Of a stretch of 49,610 nucleotides of DNA, positions 3,511-48,617 are shown in pieces (within the stretch, counting starts at the first letter, position 1; every line of letters begins with the position of its first letter). The notes beneath the pieces are model-generated. The model saw only the letters and a program-made list of their open reading frames with translations, had not been told where the DNA came from and did no database searches. A program made the translations under genes and the position numbers. Source of the stretch: a virus. The stretch lies in the IMG/VR virus record IMGVR_UViG_3300033550_000006, positions 1-49,610 of that record; one strand, given 5' to 3'.

Positions 3511-3685
3511 CGAGCTGATGGCGGACCCGGCGGCCACGCCGCTGGATACCGACAACCAGCTCATCGCCACCGAGGCGGCGCTGCGCAAGGCCAACCGCGA
3601 CCAGATCGACAGCGCCGCCCTCCTGCGCGACGAAGGCAAGGTCGCCTGCGGCTGGTGGGCGCGCTTCCGAGGACGATGCCAGTGA
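3368..3685 (+). CDS. Outer-membrane spanin lipoprotein (o-spanin, Rz1-like)
   Basis: This 105-residue lipoprotein begins MSLRSTSLGLLLCVAAC. It has a short hydrophobic signal and a lipobox (VAAC) with the lipidated Cys at residue 17. A Pro/Thr-rich stretch follows, then a helical region. It starts inside the inner spanin gene and ends 175 nt beyond it, a partly overlapped spanin pair. At 105 residues it is longer than most Rz1 proteins. It should be anchored in the inner leaflet of the outer membrane and contact the inner spanin. Confidence 0.8.
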   Translation: MSLRSTSLGLLLCVAACSQTPTRPVAPPSLQDTLAPEAVVGTKYRSRDELMADPAATPLDTDNQLIATEAALRKANRDQIDSAALLRDEGKVACGWWARFRGRCQ

Positions 3686-6248: not shown

Positions 6249-8351
6249 ATGGCCGGCAACATCCTGCGCGTTGACTTCGGCCCGGCGCCCCCGACCGAAC
6301 TGACGCGCCCCTCTGCTCTGCCCACGCCCGGCGCCCCTGACGGCGGGTCGCCCACCGCGTCCTCGCAGGTGCTGAGCGGCTTGGCCGGTTATATCCAGAC
6401 CTGCTACCGCACCGCGGCGGACAACCGCCAGAACCAAGGCGTGGACGACCGCATGATGTCGGCCCTGCGCGCCCTACGCGGCGAGTACGACGCCAAGACC
6501 CTGTCCGACATCCGAAATTTCGGCGGTTCGGAAATCTACGCCCGGGTCATTGCCAGCAAGGTGCGCGGCTGCGCCGCCCTGCTCCGCGAGATTTACACCG
6601 CCACCTCCCAGCCGTGGGCGTTGTCGCCAACGCCGGATCCGTCCCTTGCCGGCCCGTCCGTGGACGAGACGGTGCGCAGCATCCTGACCGCCGAGGTGGG
6701 AGAGGTGCAGGCGGCTGGCGCTCCGATGCCTTCACTGGAACAGGTGCAAGAGCGGGTGACCCAGCTGCGCGACGAGATCATGCAGCACCGCAAGAAGCAG
6801 GCGCAGGACGGGCTACGCACGCGCGAAGCCGCCATCAACGACATCATGTGGGAAGGCGGGTTCTACGAAGCGCTTTGGGACATCCTCGGCGACATCGCCA
6901 CCTTCCCCTTCGCGGTGATGAAGGGTCCGGTCGTGCGCATGAAAACCCAGCTGGAGTGGCAAGGGCGCAAGCCGGTCGCCGTGGCCAAGCCGGCGATGAT
7001 GTGGGAGCGCTGCTCCCCATTCGACGTGTACTTCGCGCCGTGGGCACAGCGTCCGCAGGATGGATTCATCATCCATCGCGAGCGCATGAACCGCGCCGCG
7101 GTGCAGTCCCTGCGCGACCTGCCCAACTACAGCAAGGGCGCCATCGATCGCGTGCTGGCCAACTGGAATAGCAACAATTGCGAGTGGTACGACTACAACG
7201 AATCCGAACGCGCCGACTTGGAGCAGCGCGAGTCGCAGATCTCGCCCATCTACAGCGCCGAAGCCAACGAAAAGCCCATGCCGATGCTTTCGTTCTACGG
7301 CAGCGTCAGCGGCAAAATGCTGGCCGACTGGGGCGTGGACAAGAAATTCGTGCCAGATGAGTCTAAGGACATGCACGTGTTCGCCTACCTCATCGGCGGA
7401 GAAGTCATCGGCGTGACCTTGAACCCGCATCCCACCGGCAAGCTGCCTTTCTACGTGGACAGCTTCGAGCGCGTGCCGGGCAGCTGCTACGGCAACGCCA
7501 TTCCTGACTTGCTGGACGACGTGCAGGCTGTGGGCAACGCCGCGCTGCGCGCACTGGTCAACAACCTCGCCGTGGCCTCCGGCCCGATGGCGTGGGTCAA
7601 TGAGGACCGCATCCCGGAGAACGACCCCAACGCCACCAAGCTCTGGCCGTGGAAGGTGTTCCGCTTCACTGACCCCATGTCGGCCAACCAGACCGAAAAG
7701 CCGATGGAGTTTTTCCAGCCCGACGCCAACATCCAAGGGCTATTCATGGTCTACCAGCAGATGCTCAACATGGCCGACGAGCTGTCGACCATCCCGCGCT
7801 ACATGCAGGGCAATGGGCAAGGCGTGGGCGGCGCTGGCCGCACCGCCGCCGGCCTATCGATGCTGATGGAGGCCAGCAACCGCACGATCAAGCAGACCGT
7901 CACCAGCATTGACCACACCATCGTGGAGTCGGCGGTGGAAGACCTGAACGTGTATCTGGCGCTGACTCGCCCGGACATCGTGATGGAGGGCGATATCAGT
8001 GTGGACGCGCGCGGCGCCACTGAGTTGATGCAGCGCGAGACCCTGCGCATGCGCCGGCTGGAGTTCCTGAACATTACCAACAATCCCATCGACCAACAGC
8101 TGGTCGGCGTCGAAGGCCGCGGCAACCTGCTGCGCGAAATCTCGCGCGATCTGGCGCTGCCGACCGCCGACACCGTGGCTATGAATCCGCAGGTGGCCCA
8201 GCAGTTGCAGCAGATGATGCTCGCGCAGATGATGCAGGCGGCCAGCGGTGGTGGTATGAATGGCAACCAGCCGCCTCCGGCCAAGCCCGGCGCGCCGCCG
8301 CAGCCGACCCAAGGTATTGCCCGTCCCCAGAACAACAATCCCGGAGTCTGA
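6249..8351 (+). CDS. Portal protein (700 aa)
   Basis: This protein should form the dodecameric channel at the packaging vertex. Evidence includes its length (700, typical of podovirus-type portals), its position at the head of the capsid block, and an N-terminal helical segment. A long central region contains PYYV/WNE-type hydrophobic stretches, and the protein ends in a helical tail plus a Pro/Gln/Asn-rich terminus (residues about 675-700). No catalytic motif is expected. The ATG at 6249 has GGAGA at 6239-6243. The leader CCCTGTCCCGGAGAC is identical to that before the gene at 457. The next gene follows after 2 nt. Confidence 0.85.
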   Translation: MAGNILRVDFGPAPPTELTRPSALPTPGAPDGGSPTASSQVLSGLAGYIQTCYRTAADNRQNQGVDDRMMSALRALRGEYDAKTLSDIRNFGGSEIYARVIASKVRGCAALLREIYTATSQPWALSPTPDPSLAGPSVDETVRSILTAEVGEVQAAGAPMPSLEQVQERVTQLRDEIMQHRKKQAQDGLRTREAAINDIMWEGGFYEALWDILGDIATFPFAVMKGPVVRMKTQLEWQGRKPVAVAKPAMMWERCSPFDVYFAPWAQRPQDGFIIHRERMNRAAVQSLRDLPNYSKGAIDRVLANWNSNNCEWYDYNESERADLEQRESQISPIYSAEANEKPMPMLSFYGSVSGKMLADWGVDKKFVPDESKDMHVFAYLIGGEVIGVTLNPHPTGKLPFYVDSFERVPGSCYGNAIPDLLDDVQAVGNAALRALVNNLAVASGPMAWVNEDRIPENDPNATKLWPWKVFRFTDPMSANQTEKPMEFFQPDANIQGLFMVYQQMLNMADELSTIPRYMQGNGQGVGGAGRTAAGLSMLMEASNRTIKQTVTSIDHTIVESAVEDLNVYLALTRPDIVMEGDISVDARGATELMQRETLRMRRLEFLNITNNPIDQQLVGVEGRGNLLREISRDLALPTADTVAMNPQVAQQLQQMMLAQMMQAASGGGMNGNQPPPAKPGAPPQPTQGIARPQNNNPGV

Positions 8352-21501: not shown

Positions 21502-24500
21502 ATGGCTTGGAACGACGAGACCACCAACCTTCGTATGGGGGCGCTGCGTCGCCCTTCTCCGAGCCTAGACCGGGTCAACCAGATCCTCGACGAAGGTCAG
21601 GCCGACCTTGAGCGCGATGTCGACAATGCGCAGCTGACCATGCGCAGCACCACGCGGTCGGGCATCCCTGCCGGCGCGGCCGAGTTCACGCCGGCCGAGT
21701 TCGCAATGAACGACCAGACGGGTGAGGTCGCGCTGCCCAACGGGCAGGTGCTCAAGGCCGACGCGCCCACCATCCTGCAGCTGGCCACCTTGCAATCCAC
21801 GGACGGTACTCCACTGCCCACCATGCGCGCGGTGCCGCGTGGCTTCCGCCCCATCTCGCAGGCCGAGATGAAGCGCATCGTCGACTCCATTCCGACCGAG
21901 TCGGACTTCTGGGGTTCGGCGATCGCGTCGGGCAAGAGCACGCTGGGCCTAGCTGCGTCCGCCATCGATGCCATGTTCGGCAACGACGACCCGTCCAACA
22001 CATGGAGCCGCGCGCAGCAGGATCTGCCGAGTCAGCAGAGCATCGGGCAGGTGAAGGCGGGCCAAGGTCGCTGGTACAGCTCGTTCGACAGTTTTCTGTC
22101 GCAACTGGGCGAGACCGCCGGCAACGTGGGCGGCACGGTGATAGGTGCACTGCCGGTGGCGGGTGCCACGGCTGGCGCCGGTGCGCTGAGCGGTGCGGGT
22201 GTGGGCGCCGTCCCGGGCGGCGTGCTGGGTCTGGGGCTAGGCATCAGCGGCGGCGCCGCGGCGTTCGGCGAGCAGGCCACCGAGTTCTACGACAACGCGC
22301 TGGATACGCTGCAGAAGATGAGTCCGCAGGCGGTGGAGCAGGAGAGTCCGCTATTCCGCGAGGTGGTCCGCGAGAACCCGGGCATCGGTTATGAGGAGGC
22401 CCTGCGCGAAGTGGCGATCCGGGGTGCGCGTGCCGCCGGTACCACGGCCGGTGCGCTGGGCGCAGCCGAGGGCATCATCGGTGGCCGGCTGGCCGGCAAT
22501 TTCCTTGCCCGCATGGGCGTGTCCAAGGCGTTGCTTGGCGCCCCGCTGGATGCCGTCGCCAAGCGCTCGGGAGCGACGGCGACTGCGCTGCGTGTGGGTG
22601 GCCGGGCGAGTGCTGGCGGTGTGGCGGCTGGCGCGGAGGAAATGGCCGAGACCATGTTCGGCCAAGCAGCCGGCGCGGCGGCCACGGGTATCGGCTCGAC
22701 CAATCCGCTGGACTATGCCGATCCGAACGAAGGTATTGATGCGGCGTTGACCGGCATTATCTTCGGCGCGCTCGGCGGCCGTGGCCGCGCGACTCCGGAG
22801 GAGATTGCGGTCAGCAGCGACGTGGGCGCGGCACTGGGTGCCAACCCGGACATCAACCAGCCGTGGAACCAACAGCCGCGGCTGACGGCCGAGCAGGACG
22901 CCATTCCTGCGGCGATGCGGCGCGGGTTCCGCGCCAGTCCGGGTCCCATCCCCGGCTTGGCTGGTCCGGCAGCGCCGACGCCGGAAGAACGCAACATGGT
23001 GCGCAATCAACTGGGCAACGTGTTGGCGGAGCGTTTCGGCCCGGATTGGTTCAACCGGCAGGAACAGATCGCACAGGACCCGGGTGGCCGCCAGCTGCTG
23101 GGCCAGCTGATCGCACTGGAGCGCGAAGCGTTCGAGGCCGAGGAGCAGCCGGCCTACGTGCGCCGCGCCAACATGGGTCCGGTCCCCGCCGGCCAGCCGG
23201 ACCTTCGTGGTCCCGCGTTCGGTGACCCGACGCTGCAGCTCGACGGCATGCCGCCGCAGGAAGCTCCAAGTGATGGGGCAAATGCTCCAAGTGGCGCCCC
23301 CTTCAACCCGGCGCAGGGCGAAATGTTCGGCCCGGTGGGGCCGCAGGCGACCGTGTCTGAGCCGCAAGGTGCTGGCATGCCTTTCAACCTGCGCGAGCGG
23401 CGTGCCGCGCAGCAGATGCGGCAGGAGGAAGCCGCGGTGGCCAGCGAGCAGAACCCCGCGCTACTGGAGCAGGCGTCGTCCCGATCGCTGGAGCAGACCA
23501 TCTTTCAGCTGGAGGACGAAGTGGAGGCCCTGCAGGAGCAGCTGGACGCCCGGCCGCCGCGCGACCCCCGCAAGAAATTCCTCCGCCAGTCTCTGCAGCA
23601 GGCGCAGCAAGCGCTGGCCCAAGCCGAGGCTCAGTGGCAGGAGGCACGTCTATCCGAAGGCCCCGGTGGTGTCGCGCTGCCCAATCGCGTGGACGCACCG
23701 GAGCCAGCGGCGGCGCCGACCGAGCGCACGCCGGACGGTCGTCCTGTGGGCGTGGCGCCTGCACCGCTGGAGAACCCCATCCCGATGTCACCCGCTGAGG
23801 CCGCCAGCCGCGCCCAGACGCAGGCTCAGCGCCGCGGCGTGACCAACCCCCGCGTCACGCCCGCGCAGGCCGCTGCCGCTGCGGCACAGAGCGAGGAGCA
23901 GGTCAGCGCCAGCACCCCGGAGCCGGCCGGCGACATCGCCGCGCAGGTGGAGGGCCTGCTGGATCCGGCCAGCGCCCGCGACGCCGTGTTCGTGGCCGCC
24001 GGCAACGAGGCCGCCATCCCAGCCAGCCTGCCGCGCAACGTGCGTCGGGTGACCCGCGAAGGCGTCGGTACCCTGCTGACCACCAACCCGACCAAGGCCA
24101 AGCGGTTCCGCGCGCCGGGGCTGACTGACACCGCGCTCCAGCAAATCATCGGCTACAGCGAGTCCAAGGCGGACGCCCTGCGCTCCGGTGAGGAGCCGGT
24201 GGTGGTGCAGGCCCGCACGCGCCGCGGCGTCGCCGCCGAGCAGCTGGCCAGCCGCCGGGGGGCGCCAGTCGCTCGCGCCGCGGTGCAGCGCCTCGCCCCC
24301 AAGGGCGCCAAGGTCATCGAGACCAGCGTGGAGCAGGCGCAGGCCGCCCGCGCCGAGCGCGCGCCCCGCAAACGCGACAAGAAAGCCCCCTCTCCCCCCA
24401 CCAAGCGGACAGCCAAGAGCGATGACGAACGCACCTCCCGCAAGGACCAAGATGACCGCACCCGCGCCGACCGTGCGCTCGCGCAACCGGGAGCGACGCG

Positions 24501-27500
24501 AGAAGCCCAAGCCCCTGCAGCCGCCACGGCGGATACCGTCGATCGGGCGAGCACGCGCAAAGCCGAACGGGTAAGTGCCGGCGGCAAGGCCACCACGCTG
24601 CCGGCCAAGATGACCCGCCGCACCGGCGTGCAGGGCCGTCAGGTCGACCTGCGCGTGGAGAGCATCGACGAGGATGCGCGCTACGCCGTGGGCGCCATGC
24701 TGGCCGGCGACACCATGACCGCCAGCGACCGGGCTAAGGCCGAAGCGGCGATGCGCGACTTCGAGCAGATGGACACGCTGCTGGATGCCTCGGTGGAGGC
24801 GGCGGAGCAGCGGCTGGCCGCGATGTACAAGGACGCGCCGGATGGTACCGAGCTGCTGCGCGAAGCCGAGCGCCGGCAGCTGGAGGTGGAGCAGGCCAAG
24901 ACCGAGGGCCAGCGCGGGCGCCCGCGCGAGAAGCCCCGCACCTCGGCGCTGGCCTACGCCCCCCTGCTGCTGAGCGAGTCCCGCGGCTTCCTGCGCGCGT
25001 TGCGCGACGAGGCCCGTGCCGAGCAGGACAGCTACAGCCCCGCCAACTCCGTGGCCCGCCAGATGGCCAACGCCATGCTGCCCAACTGGCAGGAGGCGCT
25101 GCTGTCCGAACGGGAGGGCCGCAAGATCATGAAGGCGCTGGCCAGCCTGACCGACGAGCAGCTGGAAGCCACGCTGCCGGCGATGCACCAGCGCATCATG
25201 GACTCCACGGTGGCCAAGCAGGTGATGCGCGGGGCCACCGAGGTGGCGCACGCCATCCGCCGCATGGAGCAGGATCTGGCCGGTAGCCGCGCCATCCCTG
25301 ACTTCGCCGACCACCGCATCGAGGGCGTGGAAGCCAACGTGCAGCCGCACGTCACCGAGCATGGCGACCTGCCCGAAGGCGCCAAGGGTGTGGTCAACGA
25401 GTGGATCCGGCTATTCGAGAAGGGCGGCAACAAGTTCTCCGCCCCGGTACACGTGATGAGCATGCGTGACGCGATGAAGATCGCGCCGTCCGCGTTCCTC
25501 GATGGCAAGACGCCCGGGGGCAAGTTCATTCGACGTACGGATGCCAAGGGCAACCCAACCGATTACATTCTGGCCGTCCACTGGCCGGCGTATCGGTTTG
25601 AGGGTGCCGCCATCGAGGCGCTGGCGCACGAGTTCGGCCATCTGGTCACCACCGAGTTGTACGCTCGCACCGACCCGCGCACGCGCATGGGCATCGACCG
25701 CGCCTACGACAGCTGGCTGCGCAGCCAGCAGGGGCGCTCGGTGGATGACATCCTGCGTGACCAGATGCCCGGCGCCGAGCGGCTGCAGTTCGGCGGTGGC
25801 CGCACCGATCGCGCCTACGCCACCAACTTCCACGAGTGGGCCGCGCGCAACGCCGCGCTGTATCTGCTGGACCCGAGCCGGCAGGCGCTGACCGGCGTGG
25901 AGAAATTCTTCAAGGCCATTGCCGACGCGCTGCGCCACATCTACGAGCGCATCACCGGCGTCAACAAGCCTGACCGCGCGTGGGAGGAGGCGCTGGATCG
26001 TTGGATCGACGGCACGGCCAACGTGGGGCGGATGCCGCAGGTGCCGGGCGTGGCCTACAACCATGCCGGCGAGGCGTTTGCCGATGTGCCAGAACCCAAG
26101 CGTGAGGGCACCGTGGAGCGCGCCCGCAAGGCGGTGGCCGCGATGAAGCCGCTGGCCGATGTGCTCACCGGCAACGCCAACATGGCCGACGTGCGGCAGA
26201 CGATGCAGCCGCTGACCGAAGGCAAGGCGATGGACACGCTAAAAACCGGTGGCCTGATGCTGGAGACCATGCGCCAGATCGAGCGCCAGTACCGCGATAC
26301 CCCGCTGGGTTCATCGCTGTCGGGCTGGGTGCGCGGCCAGCAGCTGAAAGCCAAGACCGCCAACACGCAGCTGGAAGCCGGTTCGCGCTGGATGGAGTTG
26401 GCCAACCAGCTCGATGCCAAGGTGCGCACCGCGCTGGAGCGGGTGATGTACAACGCCACTCACTTCGCCGTGCATCCGGACAAGCTCCTGAGCGACAAAG
26501 ACAACGCGCACCTGCTGCGCGGACCGGAGCGCGTACAGGCGGTCAACGAGCAGCGCTACCGCGCCACCCGCGCGCTGTACGAAGCGGCGGTGAAAGCCGA
26601 CCCCCGCGTGACCGACATCTATGCCGGCCTGCGCGACGCGTTCACCGACCTGCACCGCAAAACGTTGGAGAAGCAGTTGGAACTCATCGAGGGGTCCAAC
26701 TTTACCCAGAAGGTCAAGCAGCAAATTACCACCCGCATCAAGGCGGCGATGGCTGAGTTGCGCGAAGGCCCCTACTTCCCGCTGATGCGCGAGGGCAACT
26801 GGATCGTCAAGGTGCAGCTGCCTTCGCATCTGCTTGGCAAGGATGGCAAGGAGAGCGGCGAGTTCTTCGATACCAAGACCGCCGCGCGCGAGGAGATGCG
26901 CAACCAGCGTGCGCTCAACCCCGGCGCGCAGGTGACCGTCGAGCGTATCGCCGACGAAGGCAAGTGGGCGGTGCGCGTGTTCCAGCGCGGCGTCTATTTC
27001 TTCGACTCCGAAGCCGCAGCCAAAGCGGCAACCGACGAAATCATGGCCGAGGTGCGCGAGAACTACGCGGCGCACAACGTCGACTTCGACGACGCGCAGG
27101 CTGCGATGGAAGACGTGGACGATGGCGACGGGGCTGGCGCGACCAACGCCATCATCAGCCAGCCGTTCCGCGCCCGCGAAGGCTACGAGCAGACCAAGCA
27201 GGGGTCGCCTGAATTCCTGCAGGAGGTGCGCACGCTGGTCAACAGCAAGGCTATTGACCCCGAGGTCGGCGCGGTGCTGGAACGGTTGGCCATCGAGGCG
27301 CTGCCGGAAAACAACTACCGCAAGGCCCTGCTGCCGCGCCAGAACATCTTCGGCGCCAGCAAGCAGATGCTGCGGGCCTACGCGCATCGCTACCAAGGCG
27401 CAGCGCACTACTACGCCACGGTGGAGCATGGCGGCCCCATCAACCGCAACTGGCAGCGCGCATGGGAGGTGAACCGTACCTACTCCCCGGCGGGCCGCGT

Positions 27501-29154
27501 GCTCAACGTGCTGCAGGCCAACCAAGCCGAGATCCAGAAGCGCATGAACAACAGCGCCAGCAATCGGGCGATGAACTTCATTACCGATGCCAGCTCGCTG
27601 TATTCGCTTGGTTTCTCGCCAGCCTACGTGCTGACCAACTCGCTGCAGCCGTGGACGGTGACGCTGCCGGTACTGGCGGGCCTGTCCAAGCGTGACGGCA
27701 GCAGCGTGGGCGTCGTCGACGCGACCAAGTATCTCAAGGAGGCGTACAGCGGCGCGCTGCCTTTCTTCTCCAAGCGCGGCATCGCCGACTTCGTCAACGA
27801 GACCAAGGCGCTGCTGGGCACGCGTGCCACGGCGCAGGGCCTGCAGGAGACGGCCAAGGAGATCATCACCAAGTTCGGCAAGACCGAGGGCGAGCAGCGC
27901 ATGTTGGAGCACCTGCTGGAGCGCGGCACGCTCGACTTCTCGTGGCTGAACTCGCTGGAGGACGCCATGCGGTCGGGCAAGGCCGGTCAGGTCTGGGCCA
28001 ACGTCCAGCGCCTCGGCATGGCCATGCCCCAGCAGGTGGAGGCAATGAACCGCGTGGTGACCGCGTTGGCCGCGTACCGGCTGGCCAAGGCCGAGCGCCT
28101 GACCGATGGTGGCGAAGCGGCGCTCAACGAGTTCGCCGACGACATGGTGGCCGACACCCAGTTGGACTACAGCCGGATGAACCGCCCGCTGGCGTTCAAC
28201 AAGGCGGGCCTCAACATCATCCTGCAGTTCAAGCTCTACATGCAGGGTATGTATATGCTGTTCATCCGCAACGCCGGCATGGCGCTTCGCGGGGCCACGG
28301 CCGAGGAGCGCAAGCAGGGTCGCAAGACGATCGCCTACCTGCTGGCCAGCCACGCGGCCGCGGCCGGCGCCGGTGGTCTGGGTCCGGTCGCCGCGGTGGC
28401 CAAACTGGCGCTGGTCGCCTTCGCCGCCATGGGCGGTGACGATGACGACGAGTGGAAGTCCGGCGAGCAGCTGATGCACGAGCTGCTGCAGGACATGTTC
28501 GGCGAATACGGTGGCACGGTGGCCGAGAAGGGCCTGCCGGCGATACTGGGCATCGACATGTCCGATCGCATCGGCCTGCCGGTGCTGGCCGACACCCGGT
28601 TCGCCAACATCCGCGAAGACGACACCACGGCGCAGTCGATGGACAAGTGGGTGCTGTACTCGCTCGGCGCGCCCTACTCCAACTTCCGCCGCGCCGCGCA
28701 GGGTACTTCGGCGGCGCTCTCCGGCGACTGGCAGCAGGCGGCCAAGGGCCTGCCCTCGGCGGCGCGCGCGCTCGCGCGCAGCGGCCAGTGGATGGCCGAT
28801 GGTGTGGTGGACATGGATGGCGACCAGTTCATCCCGCGCGACCAGCTGGATTGGGGCGACCTGTCCATCAGCGCGCTGGGGCTGGCCCCGCTCACCACCA
28901 GCACGGCCTACCAGCAGCGCAGCGAGACCAAGCAGACCATGGCGCGCATCACCAGTGAGCGCAAACGCCTGCTGCAGGCGTACCGCACCGGCGAGGACGT
29001 GGGCGAGGACGTGGCCACGTTCAATGCCAGCGTGCCCAAGGCATTCCGGCTCACCGGCGAGCAGCTGCGGCGCAGCAAGGAGGCCAAGGGCGAGCGCGAC
29101 CGCGGCGAGGTGCGCAAGGAGGAAGCGGCGGTGCGGCGGTTGCTGGGCCAGTAA
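21502..29154 (+). CDS. Giant polyvalent virion protein with zincin motif (about 2550 aa)
   Basis: Residue numbers are from ATG 21502. GAGG lies 8 nt upstream; an ATG at 21463 lacks a ribosome-binding site and would place the hairpin in the coding region. The N-terminal part holds Gly/Ala-rich, membrane-active-looking segments (about 200-430). A long Pro/Ala/Gln-rich region (about 500-800) and a basic stretch follow. The middle holds HEFGH (1376-1380), a zinc-metallopeptidase HExxH motif, then FHEWAAR near 1444 that may supply another ligand. The C-terminal third has charged helices and a segment (about 2200-2290) with NFITDASSLYSLGF and FKLYMQGMYMLFIRNAG, resembling polyvalent-protein-associated domains. 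Such proteins are typically packaged and injected with the DNA. It ends the virion block before a hairpin terminator. Confidence 0.7.
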   Translation: MAWNDETTNLRMGALRRPSPSLDRVNQILDEGQADLERDVDNAQLTMRSTTRSGIPAGAAEFTPAEFAMNDQTGEVALPNGQVLKADAPTILQLATLQSTDGTPLPTMRAVPRGFRPISQAEMKRIVDSIPTESDFWGSAIASGKSTLGLAASAIDAMFGNDDPSNTWSRAQQDLPSQQSIGQVKAGQGRWYSSFDSFLSQLGETAGNVGGTVIGALPVAGATAGAGALSGAGVGAVPGGVLGLGLGISGGAAAFGEQATEFYDNALDTLQKMSPQAVEQESPLFREVVRENPGIGYEEALREVAIRGARAAGTTAGALGAAEGIIGGRLAGNFLARMGVSKALLGAPLDAVAKRSGATATALRVGGRASAGGVAAGAEEMAETMFGQAAGAAATGIGSTNPLDYADPNEGIDAALTGIIFGALGGRGRATPEEIAVSSDVGAALGANPDINQPWNQQPRLTAEQDAIPAAMRRGFRASPGPIPGLAGPAAPTPEERNMVRNQLGNVLAERFGPDWFNRQEQIAQDPGGRQLLGQLIALEREAFEAEEQPAYVRRANMGPVPAGQPDLRGPAFGDPTLQLDGMPPQEAPSDGANAPSGAPFNPAQGEMFGPVGPQATVSEPQGAGMPFNLRERRAAQQMRQEEAAVASEQNPALLEQASSRSLEQTIFQLEDEVEALQEQLDARPPRDPRKKFLRQSLQQAQQALAQAEAQWQEARLSEGPGGVALPNRVDAPEPAAAPTERTPDGRPVGVAPAPLENPIPMSPAEAASRAQTQAQRRGVTNPRVTPAQAAAAAAQSEEQVSASTPEPAGDIAAQVEGLLDPASARDAVFVAAGNEAAIPASLPRNVRRVTREGVGTLLTTNPTKAKRFRAPGLTDTALQQIIGYSESKADALRSGEEPVVVQARTRRGVAAEQLASRRGAPVARAAVQRLAPKGAKVIETSVEQAQAARAERAPRKRDKKAPSPPTKRTAKSDDERTSRKDQDDRTRADRALAQPGATREAQAPAAATADTVDRASTRKAERVSAGGKATTLPAKMTRRTGVQGRQVDLRVESIDEDARYAVGAMLAGDTMTASDRAKAEAAMRDFEQMDTLLDASVEAAEQRLAAMYKDAPDGTELLREAERRQLEVEQAKTEGQRGRPREKPRTSALAYAPLLLSESRGFLRALRDEARAEQDSYSPANSVARQMANAMLPNWQEALLSEREGRKIMKALASLTDEQLEATLPAMHQRIMDSTVAKQVMRGATEVAHAIRRMEQDLAGSRAIPDFADHRIEGVEANVQPHVTEHGDLPEGAKGVVNEWIRLFEKGGNKFSAPVHVMSMRDAMKIAPSAFLDGKTPGGKFIRRTDAKGNPTDYILAVHWPAYRFEGAAIEALAHEFGHLVTTELYARTDPRTRMGIDRAYDSWLRSQQGRSVDDILRDQMPGAERLQFGGGRTDRAYATNFHEWAARNAALYLLDPSRQALTGVEKFFKAIADALRHIYERITGVNKPDRAWEEALDRWIDGTANVGRMPQVPGVAYNHAGEAFADVPEPKREGTVERARKAVAAMKPLADVLTGNANMADVRQTMQPLTEGKAMDTLKTGGLMLETMRQIERQYRDTPLGSSLSGWVRGQQLKAKTANTQLEAGSRWMELANQLDAKVRTALERVMYNATHFAVHPDKLLSDKDNAHLLRGPERVQAVNEQRYRATRALYEAAVKADPRVTDIYAGLRDAFTDLHRKTLEKQLELIEGSNFTQKVKQQITTRIKAAMAELREGPYFPLMREGNWIVKVQLPSHLLGKDGKESGEFFDTKTAAREEMRNQRALNPGAQVTVERIADEGKWAVRVFQRGVYFFDSEAAAKAATDEIMAEVRENYAAHNVDFDDAQAAMEDVDDGDGAGATNAIISQPFRAREGYEQTKQGSPEFLQEVRTLVNSKAIDPEVGAVLERLAIEALPENNYRKALLPRQNIFGASKQMLRAYAHRYQGAAHYYATVEHGGPINRNWQRAWEVNRTYSPAGRVLNVLQANQAEIQKRMNNSASNRAMNFITDASSLYSLGFSPAYVLTNSLQPWTVTLPVLAGLSKRDGSSVGVVDATKYLKEAYSGALPFFSKRGIADFVNETKALLGTRATAQGLQETAKEIITKFGKTEGEQRMLEHLLERGTLDFSWLNSLEDAMRSGKAGQVWANVQRLGMAMPQQVEAMNRVVTALAAYRLAKAERLTDGGEAALNEFADDMVADTQLDYSRMNRPLAFNKAGLNIILQFKLYMQGMYMLFIRNAGMALRGATAEERKQGRKTIAYLLASHAAAAGAGGLGPVAAVAKLALVAFAAMGGDDDDEWKSGEQLMHELLQDMFGEYGGTVAEKGLPAILGIDMSDRIGLPVLADTRFANIREDDTTAQSMDKWVLYSLGAPYSNFRRAAQGTSAALSGDWQQAAKGLPSAARALARSGQWMADGVVDMDGDQFIPRDQLDWGDLSISALGLAPLTTSTAYQQRSETKQTMARITSERKRLLQAYRTGEDVGEDVATFNASVPKAFRLTGEQLRRSKEAKGERDRGEVRKEEAAVRRLLGQ

Positions 29155-36690: not shown

Positions 36691-37028
36691 AGTTCAAAAG
36701 GCTCGCGTGGTTCCAGCTGCTCCAGCCAGTTTCGCAGGTAGCGCAGGGCCGTCTCATCCACGACGGTGTGCACTGTAGCGCCTGCGCGGCGGAACTCGCT
36801 GGCTTTCACTTTCTGCCGACCGGTCAAGTCGGCGTCGGGGTCATCGAAACGTTTGGCTTCCAGAATGAAGGGATGGCCAGCCACCACACCGGTGGCATCG
36901 AGCGTGGTGGTGAACATGGTACCTGCATGCCAGTCAATGCAGAACTCCATGCCGCGCCGCGCGCACACCTCTTCGATGGTTGCTTTGATGCGGTCCTTGA
37001 CTTTGTCCTCTGGCGTTTTCTTGCTCAC
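36687..37028 (-). CDS. VRR-NUC nuclease (113 aa)
   Basis: This small PD-(D/E)xK endonuclease has a predicted active site in GHPFILEAKR (E and K of the E-x-K) and the downstream LTGRQKVKASEFRRAGATV helix, as in stand-alone VRR-NUC proteins. Such enzymes cleave branched DNA or Holliday junctions and often partner with an SF2 helicase, which is the next gene. It starts at GTG 37028 and overlaps the methylase stop (GTGA). Confidence 0.8.
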   Translation of the reverse strand: MSKKTPEDKVKDRIKATIEEVCARRGMEFCIDWHAGTMFTTTLDATGVVAGHPFILEAKRFDDPDADLTGRQKVKASEFRRAGATVHTVVDETALRYLRNWLEQLEPREPFEL

Positions 37029-37516
37029 GAGAAGTCCCGGAAGATGGTGCTGCGCCGGATGATGCGGCGCTGTCCGTTGTACTGGCCCGCGTTGATGAGG
37101 AACAACGATGAGCCGCGCGTGTTGCCGTTGATTGGCTTGCCGTTGGCCCCGAGGAACCCGATGCGTCCCACCAGCGTGAACTCAAACGCGTTGGGGATAA
37201 GGTCGAAAAATCGCTCCTCTCCGTTGGGCGACATGATCAGCATCGCCGTCAGCGACGCGCATCCCAGCGCGTACGCCACCCACGGGTCGATGTCCGAGTA
37301 CGGCGGGTTGCAGAAGATGCGACACCCGTCCGGCCAGCGGTGGCTGAGCGAGTCGCCCGGGGTGAACTCGGGCCGGCTCCACAACGGCGTGGCCAGCGCG
37401 TTATTGCTGTCGCACGCGGCGTCGTAGTCGAATGCCCCGCCGGCCACGTGCTGCGCCCACCGATAGACCGACAGCGGCGTGGTCCACGTGTCGCGGTCGG
37501 CGGGGCGACCCGTCAT
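37025..37516 (-). CDS. dam: Phage DNA N6-adenine methyltransferase (Dam-type, 163 aa)
   Basis: This protein resembles the phage Dam family: WTTPLSVYRWAQHVAGGAFDYDAACD near the start and the catalytic NPPY at 70-73 (preceded by FC), then IMSPNGEERFF. It methylates adenine in DNA, probably to protect phage DNA or to regulate packaging or expression. Length is normal for the family. The start at ATG 37516 is fixed by a TGATG overlap with the small membrane gene upstream, so a longer ORF is not needed. Confidence 0.85.
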   Translation of the reverse strand: MTGRPADRDTWTTPLSVYRWAQHVAGGAFDYDAACDSNNALATPLWSRPEFTPGDSLSHRWPDGCRIFCNPPYSDIDPWVAYALGCASLTAMLIMSPNGEERFFDLIPNAFEFTLVGRIGFLGANGKPINGNTRGSSLFLINAGQYNGQRRIIRRSTIFRDFS

Positions 37517-41389: not shown

Positions 41390-41725
41390 TCATCGGTTGG
41401 CGTTGCGGGCTTCCATCTTGTCCAGCCACTCGGGGGTGGCGTTAGACACGTGGGGGAGGTCGGCGATGTCGCACAGAGTGCGAAGCATCACATCGGGGAT
41501 ATGGCGCAGTGATTGCGTGCCGTTGGCAAACAAGCCGGTGCGTGGCATGAGCAGGGAGGCAGCGCGAGTGCGCTTGTGAGTGATGATGGACTGCATCTGC
41601 AGCAGATGTTGGAGCACCACGTTCAGCGCTTCGCGGTCGGTCGCTTGCGCCATCATGCGCTGCAGCGACGGAATCAGATCAGGTCGTTCCGCGCGAAGTT
41701 GGTTCGCGATTGCTTGCACGTCCAC
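41390..41725 (-). CDS. Hypothetical helical protein (111 aa), downstream of the operator palindrome
   Basis: This 111-residue, mostly helical protein reads MDVQAIANQLRAERPDLIPS and LLQMQSIITHKRTRAAS, with no recognised domain. It starts at GTG 41725, preceded by GGGGA. The 17-bp palindrome (41737-41753) ends 11 nt before the start codon, so it is probably the first gene controlled by that site and heads the replication operon. Confidence 0.6.
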   Translation of the reverse strand: MDVQAIANQLRAERPDLIPSLQRMMAQATDREALNVVLQHLLQMQSIITHKRTRAASLLMPRTGLFANGTQSLRHIPDVMLRTLCDIADLPHVSNATPEWLDKMEARNANR

Positions 41726-41736
41726 GATAGTCCCCA

Positions 41737-41753
41737 GTTAAAACGGTTATAAC
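41737..41753. promoter_or_regulatory. 17-bp palindromic operator copy 1
   Basis: The sequence is GTTAAAACGGTTATAAC. Reverse-complemented, it differs from the copy at 46238-46254 only at the centre base. It lies just upstream of the GTG at 41725. The leftward strand carries TATAAC, which could be a -10 hexamer. See also the copies at 48539 and 48599. Confidence 0.7.
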
Positions 41754-43467: not shown

Positions 43468-43692
43468 TCAGCCCCCCTTACGTCGATTGGCCGAGCGCGA
43501 CAGGATCTGCCGGTTCGACTTGGCGTTGTTCATCGGGTTGCCGTCCTTGTGGTCGACTTCCTTGCCGTCGCCCTTGTGCACGCGGCCGGCGCGTTCTTCC
43601 TCGCGGCGCGCGGCATTGCGGCTGGCGCGGGCTTTTTTCTGCTCCGGGGTGCCGTGGTACTCCCGGTATTCCTTTTTGTAGTCGCGTGCCAT
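43468..43692 (-). CDS. Small HNH endonuclease (74 aa)
   Basis: This is a basic protein whose C-terminal half holds the beta-beta-alpha-metal fold: VDHKDGNPMNNAKSNRQIL. D47-H48 start the motif, with Asn and the basic NRRKGG tail. It resembles free-standing HNH nucleases of phages. The start at ATG 43692 has GAGGG 8 nt upstream. ATG 43698, which overlaps the upstream stop, is too close to that ribosome-binding site. It is probably a nicking or homing-type enzyme or a packaging accessory. Confidence 0.7.
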   Translation of the reverse strand: MARDYKKEYREYHGTPEQKKARASRNAARREEERAGRVHKGDGKEVDHKDGNPMNNAKSNRQILSRSANRRKGG

Positions 43693-43986: not shown

Positions 43987-44394
43987 TCACTTCTCCCCGA
44001 GTTTGGCCACGTACTTGTCCCATCCACCGCAGCGGTCAACTGCCGCGATGGCCCCCTGCAGCGTCGACGTCGCCACGCCCGCGCCAGCCGCCATAGCTTG
44101 GATGCCCAGCTTGCGATCGAGCGAATGGTATTCCGCGTGCAGCTTGCCCAATTTACCCAACGTCAAGGCGCGCGGCAGGCGGGGGCGGAAGTCAGGATCC
44201 ACCTCCACCTGCACGCGCTTGGATGGCTTGCACAGCAGAGCGCCGCAGGAACGCACCCGGCCATCACGCAACGCCGGGGCCGGCACCATCTTGACGACGC
44301 CGCATGAACACCGGACGCTCACCATCGTCTCCCTGCCGCCCCAGACACTCGTCAGGACAGAGAGCTTGCCGTACTTTTTGCGTAACTTCTTCAT
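43987..44394 (-). CDS. Zinc-ribbon protein, HNH-associated-type N-terminus (135 aa)
   Basis: Residues 1-55 read YGKLSVLTSVWGGRE and then RCSCGVVKMVPAPALRDGRV-RSCGALLC. This is a zinc-binding domain found at the N-terminus of many phage HNH/AP2-type proteins, here without the nuclease. Residues 70-135 are helical (LHAEYHSLDRKLGIQAMAAG). It may be a DNA-binding relic or regulator. Its 5' end overlaps the preceding gene by 131 nt. Confidence 0.55.
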   Translation of the reverse strand: MKKLRKKYGKLSVLTSVWGGRETMVSVRCSCGVVKMVPAPALRDGRVRSCGALLCKPSKRVQVEVDPDFRPRLPRALTLGKLGKLHAEYHSLDRKLGIQAMAAGAGVATSTLQGAIAAVDRCGGWDKYVAKLGEK

Positions 44395-45103
44395 AGTCGA
44401 TTTCTCGTGGGTCGATCTCGTACATGTGGTACAAGGGTTTGCCCGTCACGCCGCTATACAGGCTAGATGCGTCCCGGGTCACGCTGACAGGGCGAGGGTT
44501 CCGCACGTCAATCACAGCGCCGGGGTCCACGCCGGTCAGCGCGCTGAAATACACCGTGCGCGGGCTGATGTTCATCACGTCACGATCGCGCTGGTCAATT
44601 TGCGACAACACTGCCCCAATGCCGTACGTGTAGCACACGGGGTCATCCACTTTGCCCATCAACAGAGCATAAAGCGCTGGGTTGGCCTCGGGTTCGGCCA
44701 GCGTGTTGGCCACAAGGCGACCATAGAACGCCCCCATGCGGTCCACCAGCTGCTGCGAGGACATAAGCTGCCAAGCCCCTTTGATGTTGGTGAAATCAGG
44801 GAACATCAATCGCAGGTTTCGGTACAGCACCAGCGACACGTCCACGGGGTAGCCGCGCATGAGCAACATAATGAACACCGTGTCGGCGCCGTACGACGAC
44901 ATGTCGAAGTGCGGATGTGCTTGGAGCAGAGCAATTGGGTGATAGGGTGCGCGCGTGGCGACCCGCTGCCTCGCCAAGTCAGCAACCCGGTCCATGACCC
45001 GCTTGTCGTGGACAGAGCAGTTGGCGCGGATAAGCACGCGGTTAACCGATTCGCGCCATCCGCGTTCCTCGGCTTCCAGCATTTCAAGCCTCTTGTCGGA
45101 CAA
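44264..45103 (-). CDS. Hypothetical protein (279 aa)
   Basis: This is a mostly helical, soluble protein (LEMLEAEERGWRESVNRVL..., DTVFIMLLMRGYPVDVSLVLYR, MGAFYGRLVANTLAEPE) I do not recognise. It starts at TTG 45103 with a strong GGGAGGTG 5 nt upstream. ATG 45082 is a weaker alternative. The last 40 residues overlap the next gene and are Arg/Gly-rich, like a frame shadow. The true stop may have been lost by mutation. Confidence 0.55.
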   Translation of the reverse strand: MSDKRLEMLEAEERGWRESVNRVLIRANCSVHDKRVMDRVADLARQRVATRAPYHPIALLQAHPHFDMSSYGADTVFIMLLMRGYPVDVSLVLYRNLRLMFPDFTNIKGAWQLMSSQQLVDRMGAFYGRLVANTLAEPEANPALYALLMGKVDDPVCYTYGIGAVLSQIDQRDRDVMNISPRTVYFSALTGVDPGAVIDVRNPRPVSVTRDASSLYSGVTGKPLYHMYEIDPREIDYEEVTQKVRQALCPDECLGRQGDDGERPVFMRRRQDGAGPGVA

Positions 45104-45332
45104 TCCACACCTCCCGGTCGGCTAACCACGTCATGCTGAAAGACCTGCCTGAGCGCTGCAGAAAACGCGCCACCACGTTGACGTCACGGGTGTCAGCGTA
45201 GGCGCCCACGCCATGCACGCTGAACTCCTGCAGTAGTTTTTTGATGTACTGCTTGCGGGGGAAAGGCGACACCCGCAGGAGCGGCGCCTCCCGCGGGTAC
45301 CCAGCCGCATAGTGACCGTGGGTGATGGTCAC
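45084..45332 (-). CDS. Small hypothetical protein (82 aa)
   Basis: This 82-residue protein starts at GTG 45332, overlapping the DUF3150-like gene's stop (GTGA). It is basic, with KQYIKKLLQEFSVHG and FSMTWLADREVWIVRQEA, and no recognised domain. It is coupled to the regulated module, so it may belong to the same functional unit. Confidence 0.5.
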   Translation of the reverse strand: MTITHGHYAAGYPREAPLLRVSPFPRKQYIKKLLQEFSVHGVGAYADTRDVNVVARFLQRSGRSFSMTWLADREVWIVRQEA

Positions 45333-46219
45333 TGGCCGAGCGTCGAATGCAGCTTGGACAGGATCTCGTCGGTAGACTGCTTGACCGACATGGCCACACC
45401 CACGTTACTGCGCAGCACCTCGGCGTCGAACCCGGCGATGCGCTCGCGCACCTCCCGCGTCAACCGCTCCAGCGTCGCATCGCCGAACACGTTGAGCGAA
45501 GCCAGCAGGTCCACCGTCTCGCGCAGCTGGGACACCATGGTATCGCGAAACACCTTGGTCTTGCCCTTCTCCTCGTCCAGCTGCAGCCGGTCGCTGTAGC
45601 GCTCCAGCGACTCGCGCAACCGCCCCCATGCCGCCCGCAAGGCGTCGCCCACCTGCCGCTGCACGTTACCTTCGTAGTGCTGCTGCCATGCGACAGCGGC
45701 CTTCTCGGACATGCCCACTCGCACGTCGCCAAAGTCCTTGGGGACCGGCGAAAATGAAACCTTGATGGAGAACTTGCTGCGCACCACGTCCGGCTGCGGG
45801 TAGTCGCTGTCCTCGCCCATATCGCCGAGGTTGGCCACAGCCTGCGCGCGCAGCACCGGGTACTGGGCCACGAAATCGTCCACGGTCTTATCGAACTCGA
45901 CCTCCAGATCACGCAGCTTGCCGACCACCACCAGCGCACGGGCGTTGGGCAGCAGGCGGTTACCGGCGTCGTCCCACGGCACCGTGTTGGTGTCGATGTA
46001 GTCGCGGATCTGGTTGGCCTTGCGCTGCACTTCCTTGAGCGCGGCATCGGCGTTGGCGAGCAGATGCTTGTTGACCCGGGCCGCGTCGTTGGTGGCGCCG
46101 GCCGCCGTGATGGTTTTCTGGGTCTGCTTTTTGTCCAGCTTGCGGGCGGACCACACGCTGATGGAGCAGTAGGCCAGCATGCATGCGTCGGCGATGTTGG
46201 GAATGGTGACGTTGGTCAT
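45329..46219 (-). CDS. DUF3150-like protein of the MoxR/VWA module (296 aa)
   Basis: This 296-residue helical protein (SISVWSARKLDKKQTQKTI..., KANQIRDYIDTNTVPWDDAG, then long coiled-coil-like helices to the end) fits the DUF3150 family by size and by its place beside CobS-like AAA+ and VWA genes in other phages and plasmids. The assignment is from memory and context. The palindromic site 46238-46254 lies 19 nt before the ATG, which has AAGGAAA upstream. It may be separately transcribed or regulated within the operon. Confidence 0.6.
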   Translation of the reverse strand: MTNVTIPNIADACMLAYCSISVWSARKLDKKQTQKTITAAGATNDAARVNKHLLANADAALKEVQRKANQIRDYIDTNTVPWDDAGNRLLPNARALVVVGKLRDLEVEFDKTVDDFVAQYPVLRAQAVANLGDMGEDSDYPQPDVVRSKFSIKVSFSPVPKDFGDVRVGMSEKAAVAWQQHYEGNVQRQVGDALRAAWGRLRESLERYSDRLQLDEEKGKTKVFRDTMVSQLRETVDLLASLNVFGDATLERLTREVRERIAGFDAEVLRSNVGVAMSVKQSTDEILSKLHSTLGQ

Positions 46220-46237
46220 GGCGGTTTCCTTGCGGTA

Positions 46238-46254
46238 GTTATAACGGTTTTAAC
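46238..46254. promoter_or_regulatory. 17-bp palindromic operator copy 2
   Basis: The sequence is GTTATAACGGTTTTAAC. It occupies half of the 35-nt gap between the VWA gene's stop (46255-46257) and the DUF3150-like start. On the leftward strand TATAAC follows, a possible -10 box, so it may mark an internal promoter. Confidence 0.7.
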
Positions 46255-47436
46255 TTAGCCCTCGATATACACGTGCCGCAGCTTCTCCGGCGGCTTAACG
46301 CTGGGGACAGTGATGGCCCAGATGAGCGGCTTCTCACTGTCGCAGAACGGCGTATAGCCATCGGTCAGGACTACGATGATGTCCGCCTTCTCTTTCTCGC
46401 CACGGCGTACGCCCTTGGTCATGTCCGTGCCGCCGCCACCCGGCACTTTCTTGTTCAGCACCGCGCGCAGGTCCGAGCTGTTTTTCACCACGTCCACGCG
46501 GTGCACGGCGGCATCGGTCCACGCGATGCTGACCATCTCGGGGCGCGCGTCGTCCATGATGGACGCCATGTGGCCGCCGAAGAACTGCAGCATCTCGTCG
46601 TTGATGGACCCGGACGTGTCCACCACGATGAAGATGTGCCCCGTGCCGTGCGCCGTGCGGCCCGGAGCACCGATGCCCCGCACCACCAGCCGGCGCTGCA
46701 GCCGGCGCCACGTGGAGTTGTCGTTGCCGCGGAACACCGACTTGACGAACTGGCGCAGGATGGCCCACGGCGACTCGTTGGGTCGCTTGAGCGCGCCCAC
46801 CAGCCGCTCCATGCCGGCGGGGTAGTTGCCGGTGATGGCCTTGTGCGCCTCCGCCGCCTGCATCACCTCGGCCGGGCCGATGGGCGCGGTCTTGCCCTCG
46901 GCCGCCTCGGCTTCACCGCTGCCGTGACCATCCAGCGCCTGTTGCCCATCGGTCTTACTGCCCTTGCCATTGCCGTTGCCGTTTCCCTGATTGTCCGGCA
47001 TCAAGCAGTAGATCTCCTCCGGCGTCATCTCGTCGGTGTACTGGTTGTCCAGACAGATCTCGAACCCGACTCGATTGGGGTCAGGCACCGCGCCCACACC
47101 GCTTTTGCGCAGAGCGAAGTTGATGGCGTAGTCCGCCGCTTTGTTCATCTTGTAGTGGTTATACGGCTTGCCGTCTGGGCCAACGCCCGATTTGATGAAC
47201 TGTTCCATGCGCGGCAGGTGCCCCCATGCCATGTGCATGATCTCATGCGCCACACAGAACACCGCCTCATCGTCAGTCAGCTTGGCAATGAACTCCGGGT
47301 TGTAAGCGATCTCGTACGGAGTCACGTACAGAGTCGGTTGCTTAGGGTCCTCCCGGTGCGGCACCTTGTGCATCAAGGTACCGAAAAACGGGTGGGACAG
47401 CTGCAGGGCCATACAGGCTTCGTTGTAAATCGCCAT
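46255..47436 (-). CDS. Metallopeptidase-VWA protein (CobT/DUF2201-like, 393 aa)
   Basis: The N-terminal part is a zinc-peptidase-like domain: H64-EIM-H68 with W71-GH following (CVAHEIMHMAWGH). A Gly/Asn/Asp-rich linker (150-185) follows. The C-terminal VWA-like domain has the MIDAS D273-TSGS (VVDTSGSIN), T337 (GGGGTDMT) and D359 (LTDG). It corresponds to the DUF2201 arrangement of a metallopeptidase domain plus a VWA-like domain. It works with a MoxR AAA+ partner in chaperone-like complexes. The start at 47436 has GAGG 7 nt upstream; the gap to the ATPase gene is 8 nt. Confidence 0.8.
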   Translation of the reverse strand: MAIYNEACMALQLSHPFFGTLMHKVPHREDPKQPTLYVTPYEIAYNPEFIAKLTDDEAVFCVAHEIMHMAWGHLPRMEQFIKSGVGPDGKPYNHYKMNKAADYAINFALRKSGVGAVPDPNRVGFEICLDNQYTDEMTPEEIYCLMPDNQGNGNGNGKGSKTDGQQALDGHGSGEAEAAEGKTAPIGPAEVMQAAEAHKAITGNYPAGMERLVGALKRPNESPWAILRQFVKSVFRGNDNSTWRRLQRRLVVRGIGAPGRTAHGTGHIFIVVDTSGSINDEMLQFFGGHMASIMDDARPEMVSIAWTDAAVHRVDVVKNSSDLRAVLNKKVPGGGGTDMTKGVRRGEKEKADIIVVLTDGYTPFCDSEKPLIWAITVPSVKPPEKLRHVYIEG

Positions 47437-47444
47437 GACGAACC

Positions 47445-48524
47445 TCAGACAGTGATGTACTTGGAGAACTTCTGCAGCAGCGGCTGATTGGCCATGATCC
47501 ACTGGTACGCGGCCGGCGTGCCCATGAACTGCGGATTGCGGCGGCACAGTGCGACGAAGCCGGTCACGGCGAAGTTCGGGTCGAACCGCGCCAGATACGT
47601 GCACACCTGCTCCATGTGGGGGAGTTGGCAGCGCACCGCCACCAGCATGACCATGGCGTAGCGCATGTCCAGACCTTCCGGGATGGGCGTGCCAGTGGGG
47701 TTGGCCACAACCTGCTCGTAGCTGGGCAAGTTCATCGCCGTACGCACCAGTCCGGCCAGCTCACCCGCCGGGCCTCCGCCGATGACACCCGCCAGAAGTG
47801 CCATGCCCAGTTTGTTGTCGACCATGGCGCGGATGCCACCGGGGTAATGCTTGGCCAAGTCACTGCAGGCATGAATGGAGCGCGGCGTGCAGTACGGCGC
47901 ATCGGGAGCCTTGGGCACCGTACCGGCGAACACCACTTCCGGGCGGAACTTGGCGAAGGCGATGACTTCCGGCTCCAGCCCGGCTTCGATCGCCCACATT
48001 GCCCAGTCGTCCGGGGTCGGAGAGTTGACCTTGACGATGCTCAATCGGTTGACGACGTGCGACAGCAAGGTGTTGGCGCCAGCACCGTCGTCCAACCCGT
48101 TACCCGCCAGCACCACCATCCAGCCATCGGGCAACTGGTAGCTGCCGATGCGGCGTTCGTAGATGAGCGGCGCCACGGCTTTCTGCACCTCATGCGGGGC
48201 CTGCACGAACTCGTCGAGGAACAGGATACCGTAGGGGTGGTTCTCGACCGCATCCCAGAACGCCGGCTTGGTGAAGCGGGCGTTGTCGCCATCGGGAATG
48301 AGGTAACCGCGCACATCCACTTCGGACACCGAGGTGAGGTGGAACTCTTCCACGTGCACCGGCTTGACCAATTCCAGTTGCAGGTGCGAAGCAGCGAGAC
48401 GGACCATGGCCGTCTTGCCCACGCCGGGCGGGCCGATGAACAGCGGGGTACGCTTGGCGTGGTAGCAGGTCTTGATGGCGTCGACGATGTCGTTGGCGGG
48501 GATATTGAAGTTGACGTTGCTCAT
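47445..48524 (-). CDS. MoxR/CobS-like AAA+ ATPase (359 aa)
   Basis: Walker A is GPPGVGKT (31-38). Walker B is ILFLDEF (100-106). A sensor 1-like AGN follows LPDGWMVVL, and the arginine-finger region NRLSIVKV comes after it. The C-terminal helical part fits the MoxR family. It likely remodels a target with the VWA protein. The ATG at 48524 has AAGGA 9-10 nt upstream. An operator palindrome lies 15 nt upstream, and a strong promoter lies at 48589-48617. Confidence 0.85.
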   Translation of the reverse strand: MSNVNFNIPANDIVDAIKTCYHAKRTPLFIGPPGVGKTAMVRLAASHLQLELVKPVHVEEFHLTSVSEVDVRGYLIPDGDNARFTKPAFWDAVENHPYGILFLDEFVQAPHEVQKAVAPLIYERRIGSYQLPDGWMVVLAGNGLDDGAGANTLLSHVVNRLSIVKVNSPTPDDWAMWAIEAGLEPEVIAFAKFRPEVVFAGTVPKAPDAPYCTPRSIHACSDLAKHYPGGIRAMVDNKLGMALLAGVIGGGPAGELAGLVRTAMNLPSYEQVVANPTGTPIPEGLDMRYAMVMLVAVRCQLPHMEQVCTYLARFDPNFAVTGFVALCRRNPQFMGTPAAYQWIMANQPLLQKFSKYITV

Positions 48525-48538
48525 GTGCAGGGTCCTTG

Positions 48539-48555
48539 GTTAAAACGGTTTTAAC
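48539..48555. promoter_or_regulatory. 17-bp palindromic operator copy 3 (perfect)
   Basis: GTTAAAACGGTTTTAAC is a perfect dyad: GTTAAAAC and GTTTTAAC around a single centre base. It lies between the promoter and the ATPase ribosome-binding site, about 27-43 nt downstream of the predicted start of transcription, so a bound repressor would block the transcript. Confidence 0.8.
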
Positions 48556-48588
48556 TGGGAATCTGTCCGGCCATCGAACAGTGTAGAT

Positions 48589-48617
48589 ATTATCGCAAGT
48601 TATACCGGTTAAGTCAA
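48589..48617 (-). promoter_or_regulatory. Near-consensus sigma70 promoter for the MoxR-VWA-DUF3150 operon
   Basis: On the leftward strand TTGACT (48612-48617) and GATAAT (48589-48594) are exactly 17 bp apart. The expected start of transcription is near 48582. The -35 overlaps the stop codon of the upstream small gene, and the spacer holds a degenerate operator. Confidence 0.85.
48599..48615. promoter_or_regulatory. Degenerate operator copy 4 inside the promoter spacer
   Basis: GTTATACCGGTTAAGTC matches copy 2 at 12 of 17 bases: one half-site is good and the other weak. It lies between the -35 and -10 boxes and overlaps the -35, a typical place for a repressor's secondary site. Confidence 0.5.

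Follow-up and report, generated by a model that had tools for sequence, protein, structure and literature searches.

The virus contig IMGVR_UViG_3300033550_000006 of IMG/VR, 49,610 bases long and analyzed here over its whole length (the window), poses the question of what three adjacent genes on its minus strand do together, which encode a MoxR-type AAA+ ATPase, a protein joining a metallopeptidase-like domain to a VWA domain, and a helical protein related to the family DUF3150 (Table 1). The reading that we favor, with a probability of about one half, is a phage-encoded MoxR–VWA protein-remodeling machine, in which the gp24/gp25 pair of phage N4 appears in a ternary form with DUF3150. We set out the evidence for the identity and conservation of the three genes, for the spread of the same cassette over phages and plasmids, and for and against the other functions that such a cassette might have.

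Identity and conservation of the three genes

An earlier note on this DNA, made from the sequence alone, had described these genes as an ATPase of the MoxR type, a protein carrying an HEIMH peptidase-like domain and a VWA metal ion-dependent adhesion site (MIDAS), and a DUF3150-like partner. This description holds up. The open reading frames (ORFs) are present in that order, their synteny is kept in a related phage, and searches and structural comparison recovered both the MoxR and the VWA folds. The ATPase matches AAA_5 (4e-10) and the ATPase family PHROG 1297 (1.5e-69 over 346 residues), with a Walker A motif GPPGVGKT, a Walker B motif ILFLDEF, a sensor Asn142, Arg160 and Arg215; among 25 aligned MoxR proteins there is no variation at the lysine of Walker A, the aspartate of Walker B, the sensor asparagine or Arg160. 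Its closest solved relatives are the AAA domains of midasin, followed among MoxR-type proteins by NorQ and CbbQ, all of which are AAA+ proteins that work with a VWA partner.

The second gene follows after a gap of 8 bases. Its program-called ORF begins upstream at 47604, while the start that aligns with its relatives is the ATG used in Table 1. Both halves of the product belong to DUF2201 (3e-31 to the putative metallopeptidase domain DUF2201_N, 1e-14 to the DUF2201 VWA domain), and the protein matches PHROG 1314 at 1.4e-71. The N-terminal motif HEIMHMAWGH (HExxHxxxxH) is strongly conserved: each of the HExxH histidines, the glutamate between them, the histidine five positions beyond, and N98/D102 is present in 25 or more of 27 aligned proteins. 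H73 and D102, candidate third zinc ligands, are near-invariant, while the HExxH site itself is gone from a few plasmid-type cassettes. The MIDAS (DTSGS...GGTD...LTDG, conforming to DxSxS, T, D) is retained in 24–25 of the 25 proteins that reach that far. In a structure model with a mean predicted local distance difference test score (pLDDT) of 84, the VWA half matches VWA domains, with the midasin MIDAS domain at rank 4, and the peptidase half gives weak matches to selecase and M48-type peptidases. From these motifs the zincin-like domain may have peptidase activity.

The third protein scores 16.4 bits against DUF3150 (PF11348), below the Pfam cut-off of 24.9, so its membership depends on homology through intermediates: 14 of its 29 relatives match PF11348 (best 1.7e-12), and its family profile finds, at 8e-12, the DUF3150 protein of plasmid pCAR1, which itself matches PF11348 at 8e-92. 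By this homology we assign it to DUF3150 as a divergent member. The scans for DUF3150 rested on narrower alignments, the most diverse alignment having no conserved stretches. The model (pLDDT 87, predicted template modeling score 0.54) consists mostly of long helices and has no fold match in the PDB (best E value 0.35); its structural matches are viral DUF3150-like predictions only, the best being a BFVD protein named DUF3150 (6.7e-18).

The related phage is represented by a 60.9-kb viral contig (G001, with the window as G000; the module locus of G001 is L006), whose major capsid protein is 82% identical to that of the window. The module and its neighbors stand there in the same gene order, with identities of 57% (MoxR), 54% (VWA) and 65% (DUF3150), which indicates that the three genes are under selection. 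The capsid protein is also 50% identical to those of Rhizobium phages RHph_TM3_14A and TM27A (60.9 kb). The record is classed as linear and lacks end repeats, as is often the case for fragments. Its layout is podovirus-like. The first 29 kb hold the genes for terminase, portal, major head protein and internal virion proteins, mainly in the plus orientation; the last 20 kb hold, on the minus strand, those for a primase/helicase, a helicase, an exonuclease and a DNA polymerase of family A. The module forms the upstream end of this minus-strand replication block, on the strand opposite to most head and tail genes.

The pair in phages and the ternary cassette on plasmids

By their domains and profile matches, the first two proteins of the module are a pair of the N4 gp24/gp25 type. 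As in N4 (PHROG 1297/1314) and its Schitoviridae homologs, the gene for a MoxR-type ATPase precedes one for a DUF2201 metallopeptidase–VWA protein, and the two lie in the middle or replication region. The window phage belongs to a podovirus lineage other than that of N4, identity to the N4-type proteins is only ~25%, and N4-type phages have no recognizable DUF3150 gene beside the pair; a sensitive profile search for a hidden one beside the pair in N4-like or Rhizobium phages also found none. In tblastn searches of 50,697 phage records, 587 had a match to the ATPase and 237 one to the VWA protein, all below 60% identity.

In N4-like phages, gp24 and gp25 are among the 14 core genes kept in 25 of 25 genomes, where they are listed as unknown and as having a vWFA domain, and their transcripts in N4 are middle ones (PMC4193335); the pair and its place in the middle or replication region are also given in PMC2784036. 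The gp25 family (PHROG 1314) bears the name "HNH endonuclease" in PHROGs and RefSeq. Since N4 gp25 matches the two DUF2201 models at 3e-87 and 1e-46 and has no domain match supporting HNH, this name is wrong. A MoxR–vWA pair with an N-terminal metallopeptidase domain in the VWA protein was also reported in 2021 from group 2.2 jumbo phages, with a role as virion-assembly chaperone proposed by analogy only (PMC7824862); genome type and gene context differ from those here, and the passage describing that pair makes no mention of DUF3150. The MoxR–DUF2201 pair itself is thus already known. Searches of the literature for a function of gp24/gp25 yielded annotation-level statements only, in agreement with the earlier note, which had called the module uncharacterized.

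Outside phages the three genes form a constant set. Among 51 bacterial loci with strong matches (L018–L068), found with DUF3150 alone, the DUF3150 gene adjoins a VWA gene in all 51 and a MoxR gene in 48, with two of the three exceptions lying at contig ends; many of these loci are closely related, and the counts do not represent independent events. Most of the loci are from Burkholderiales, and the annotated examples are plasmids, with the cassette found on plasmids of Cupriavidus, Robbsia, Rhodovastum and Variovorax. The IncP-7 plasmid pCAR1 likewise has an AAA–DUF3150–VWA arrangement, and its ORF100–103 cluster is reported to be conserved in R478, Rts1, SXT and R391 (PMC2642839). As in the window phage, members of the three families are neighbors on the plasmids, but the order differs, being MoxR–DUF3150–VWA on plasmids and MoxR–VWA–DUF3150 in the phage. 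Further differences of pCAR1 are a CbbQ C-terminal domain on the ATPase and a VWA protein belonging to a separate subfamily.

Of nine viral loci retrieved by MoxR alone, four have DUF3150 as a neighbor and five do not; four whole records lacking it were checked with the profile. All three genes occur in cyanophage MinM2 and in further viral contigs. On the MoxR and VWA trees, whose deep branches are not resolved, the presence of DUF3150 needs at least 2 changes. The ternary form common to phages and plasmids, with DUF3150 as partner, seems to be undescribed in the literature searched, in which the word DUF3150 occurs in no open-access paper, most subscription papers lying outside that search. 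In another group of loci (L069–L081, from deltaproteobacteria, planctomycetes and others), DUF3150 stands beside a classic AAA ATPase, and L069 also has an SprT-like metallopeptidase. This is possibly a second AAA–DUF3150–peptidase system, and the association of DUF3150 with another AAA ATPase and an SprT-like peptidase fits an adaptor between ATPase and peptidase.

A proposed remodeling machine and its alternatives

In the remodeling machine that we favor, the three proteins would form a complex. The MoxR protein would act as an ATP-driven ring, the metal site of the VWA domain would bridge this ring to a client protein, and the zincin-like domain of the same chain would trim or grip whatever part of the client is laid bare by the ring. 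DUF3150, with its predicted long helices, would serve as a distinct adaptor or scaffold, either choosing the client or keeping the other two proteins together. RavA–ViaA, NorQ–NorD, CbbQ–CbbO and the midasin MIDAS system resemble this arrangement in combining a MoxR-type AAA+ protein with a VWA MIDAS protein, and differ in that their clients are known; none of them is known to have a VWA protein with a fused zincin-like domain, or a DUF3150 partner. As to the client here, our guess, a weak one, is a replication, expression or protein-handling protein of the infected cell, or one in the element's own replication, rather than a part of the virion, because plasmids carry the same three genes. For the same reason, a role directed at the host, or one general to mobile elements, is still plausible.

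Several observations weigh against this reading. DUF3150 is absent from N4-type phages and so is not obligatory in every such machine. The VWA protein of pCAR1 is of a different subfamily, and in a profile comparison it aligns over the HExxH region only, with a probability of 6.6%. The VWA proteins of a Paraburkholderia locus (L048) and a Variovorax plasmid (L016) lack HExxH and keep the MIDAS, which suggests that proteolysis is not always needed and that remodeling may outweigh cutting. In roseophage RPP1, moreover, the gp24/gp25 homologs have a second structural module nearby (PMC4193335).

This last arrangement would suit a function in virion assembly or maturation, in which the MoxR–VWA machine remodels a structural protein, for example of the tail, and the fused peptidase processes it. 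The jumbo phage study proposed such a role, citing the archaeal Acidianus two-tailed virus, whose tail assembly requires MoxR–VWA proteins (PMC7824862), and virion proteins often need dedicated chaperones. However, plasmids, which form no virions, commonly carry the ternary cassette, so that a role in the virion only is unlikely, and the position of the window genes in the replication block disfavors a purely virion role, as does the middle rather than late class of the N4 transcripts. We therefore regard virion assembly as a possible but clearly less favored explanation. The earlier note had suggested instead host takeover or anti-defense. In such a role the complex would unfold or cleave a host defense protein, for phages and plasmids alike. 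Phages and plasmids are targets of the same defenses, and the early or middle gene position and the strong divergence (~20–30% identity between lineages) would be in keeping with this, but anti-defense genes are usually patchy in distribution, whereas the pair is core to the N4-like phages, which makes an optional or purely anti-defense role unlikely. Matches to PADLOC models are at a generic AAA level only (best 6.8e-4). On this evidence, we consider anti-defense unlikely, and less probable than that note implied.

A module borne by the element to shield the host cell and itself from competing phages is more improbable still. Ternary conflict systems of the MoxR–VWA kind, in which the VWA protein bears a peptidase, have been described in bacteria (PMC7159879, PMC12839542), and the present module is likewise three-part. 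The window shows neither their bpMoxR ATPase nor their defining third components (PMC7159879), however: the ATPase scores 19.1 bits against bpMoxR, below the cut-off of 27, and the neighboring genes match no VMAP, beta-propeller, FtsH or iSTAND third component in Pfam. PADLOC has no model for the module, and a pair that is core to lytic N4-like phages is at odds with a defense system. Least credible of all is a cobalt or magnesium chelatase, the function implied by the usual annotation of such genes as cobS/cobT, which reflects the general likeness of MoxR–VWA pairs to CobS–CobT. The CobN large subunit (PF02514) was not found in the window, which may be incomplete, or in G001, in searches whose controls were positive, and the VWA protein matches DUF2201 with no match to CobT_C. 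As far as an incomplete genome allows, this refutes the chelatase, which the earlier note had already doubted for want of a large subunit.

A broader form of the remodeling machine can be put forward tentatively, with odds well below even. It would be a hitherto unrecognized ATP-dependent protease or remodelase used across mobile elements, in which a DUF3150 adaptor joins the AAA+ ring to the zincin–VWA protein, and which acts on the same class of host proteins in phages and conjugative plasmids. If true, this would explain genes 24 and 25 of N4-like phages, which are core to a whole phage family with no function assigned and of which gp25 is hidden under its endonuclease name. The link of gp24/gp25 to a constant plasmid cassette with DUF3150 defines DUF3150 as a partner and turns the pair into a testable three-protein system, and it speaks against virion assembly, as published, being the full explanation.

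Upstream elements and neighboring genes

Table 1. Positions of the module genes and upstream elements in the window; positions in L006 refer to the module locus of G001.
Feature	Position	Strand	Remarks
MoxR/midasin-type AAA+ ATPase, 359 amino acids	47445..48524	minus	homolog of phage N4 gp24
DUF2201 protein, 393 amino acids: zincin-like metallopeptidase (N-terminal) and VWA with complete MIDAS (C-terminal)	46255..47436	minus	N4 gp25 homolog
DUF3150-family protein (by homology), 296 amino acids, mainly long helices	45329..46219	minus	third component of ternary cassette
Palindrome GTTAAAACCGTTTTAAC	48539..48555	minus	14 nucleotides before MoxR start codon; same place in L006 (3398-3414)
Palindrome GTTAAAACCGTTATAAC	46238..46254	minus	18 nucleotides before DUF3150 start codon; same place in L006 (5973-5989)
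Third palindrome copy	41737..41753	minus	11 nucleotides before GTG of 111-amino-acid gene 41390-41725; same place in L006 (9517-9533)
Sigma-70-like promoter TTGACT-N17-GATAAT	48589..48617	minus	upstream of MoxR; degenerate palindrome in spacer (~48599-48615)

The earlier note had also given the module a dedicated promoter and two operators, and such dedicated control is not supported. The three copies of a 17-base palindrome, GTTAWAACSGTTTWAAC, in the window are far above the number expected from shuffled sequences, and G001 has about a dozen copies, clustered in its early block and almost all placed 9–15 nucleotides ahead of a start codon. In this lineage (window, L017, L006) the palindrome, in the form GTTAAAACCRTTTTAAC, lies directly 5' of the Shine-Dalgarno sequence and start codon of many early-block genes. 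Among 14 sites with flanks, 12 (3 in the window, 9 in G001) are 9–18 bases before a start codon on the strand of the gene, against ~3% in a comparable control, with open frames of at least 67 codons taken as genes. It precedes MoxR and DUF3150, and not VWA, in both the window phage and G001. Repeated before so many genes, the palindrome is a start-associated element and gives no sign of special control of the module; most likely it is an operator for some regulator. Promoter-like matches did not exceed chance in number (2 found, 1.3 expected).

With a 7-bp stem and a 3-nucleotide loop, the palindromes resemble N4 early promoters in form. Hairpin promoters for an N4-type virion RNA polymerase were rejected, as the giant 2550-residue protein of the window (21502-29154) does not match RNA polymerase; its C-terminal part matches DarB-like antirestriction and giant-protein families of unknown function, and it has no PDB match. 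A search of the window and its relatives for a T7-type RNA polymerase gave no match, a weak result in that the controls gave none either. A function as RNA hairpin was also set aside: the copies do not fold consistently (z between -2.7 and +1.7) and the outermost base pair is not conserved, which makes a DNA operator more likely. RHph_TM3_14A (L003) has a different repeated palindrome, GTTACC-N6-GGTAAC, of which some copies are a few bases upstream of a gene (for example 1450-1465, 3540-3555, 5023-5042 and 7207-7226).

Elsewhere in the window, 37025-37516 encodes a Dam-type phage DNA adenine methyltransferase (PF05869, 7e-18). A small HNH protein (43468-43692) is the best conserved neighbor of the module, with 81% identity in G001. 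Downstream of DUF3150, two proteins of unknown function (44264-44902 and 43987-44289) have counterparts in the same order in G001, 26% and 37% identical, and are possibly on the transcript of the module.

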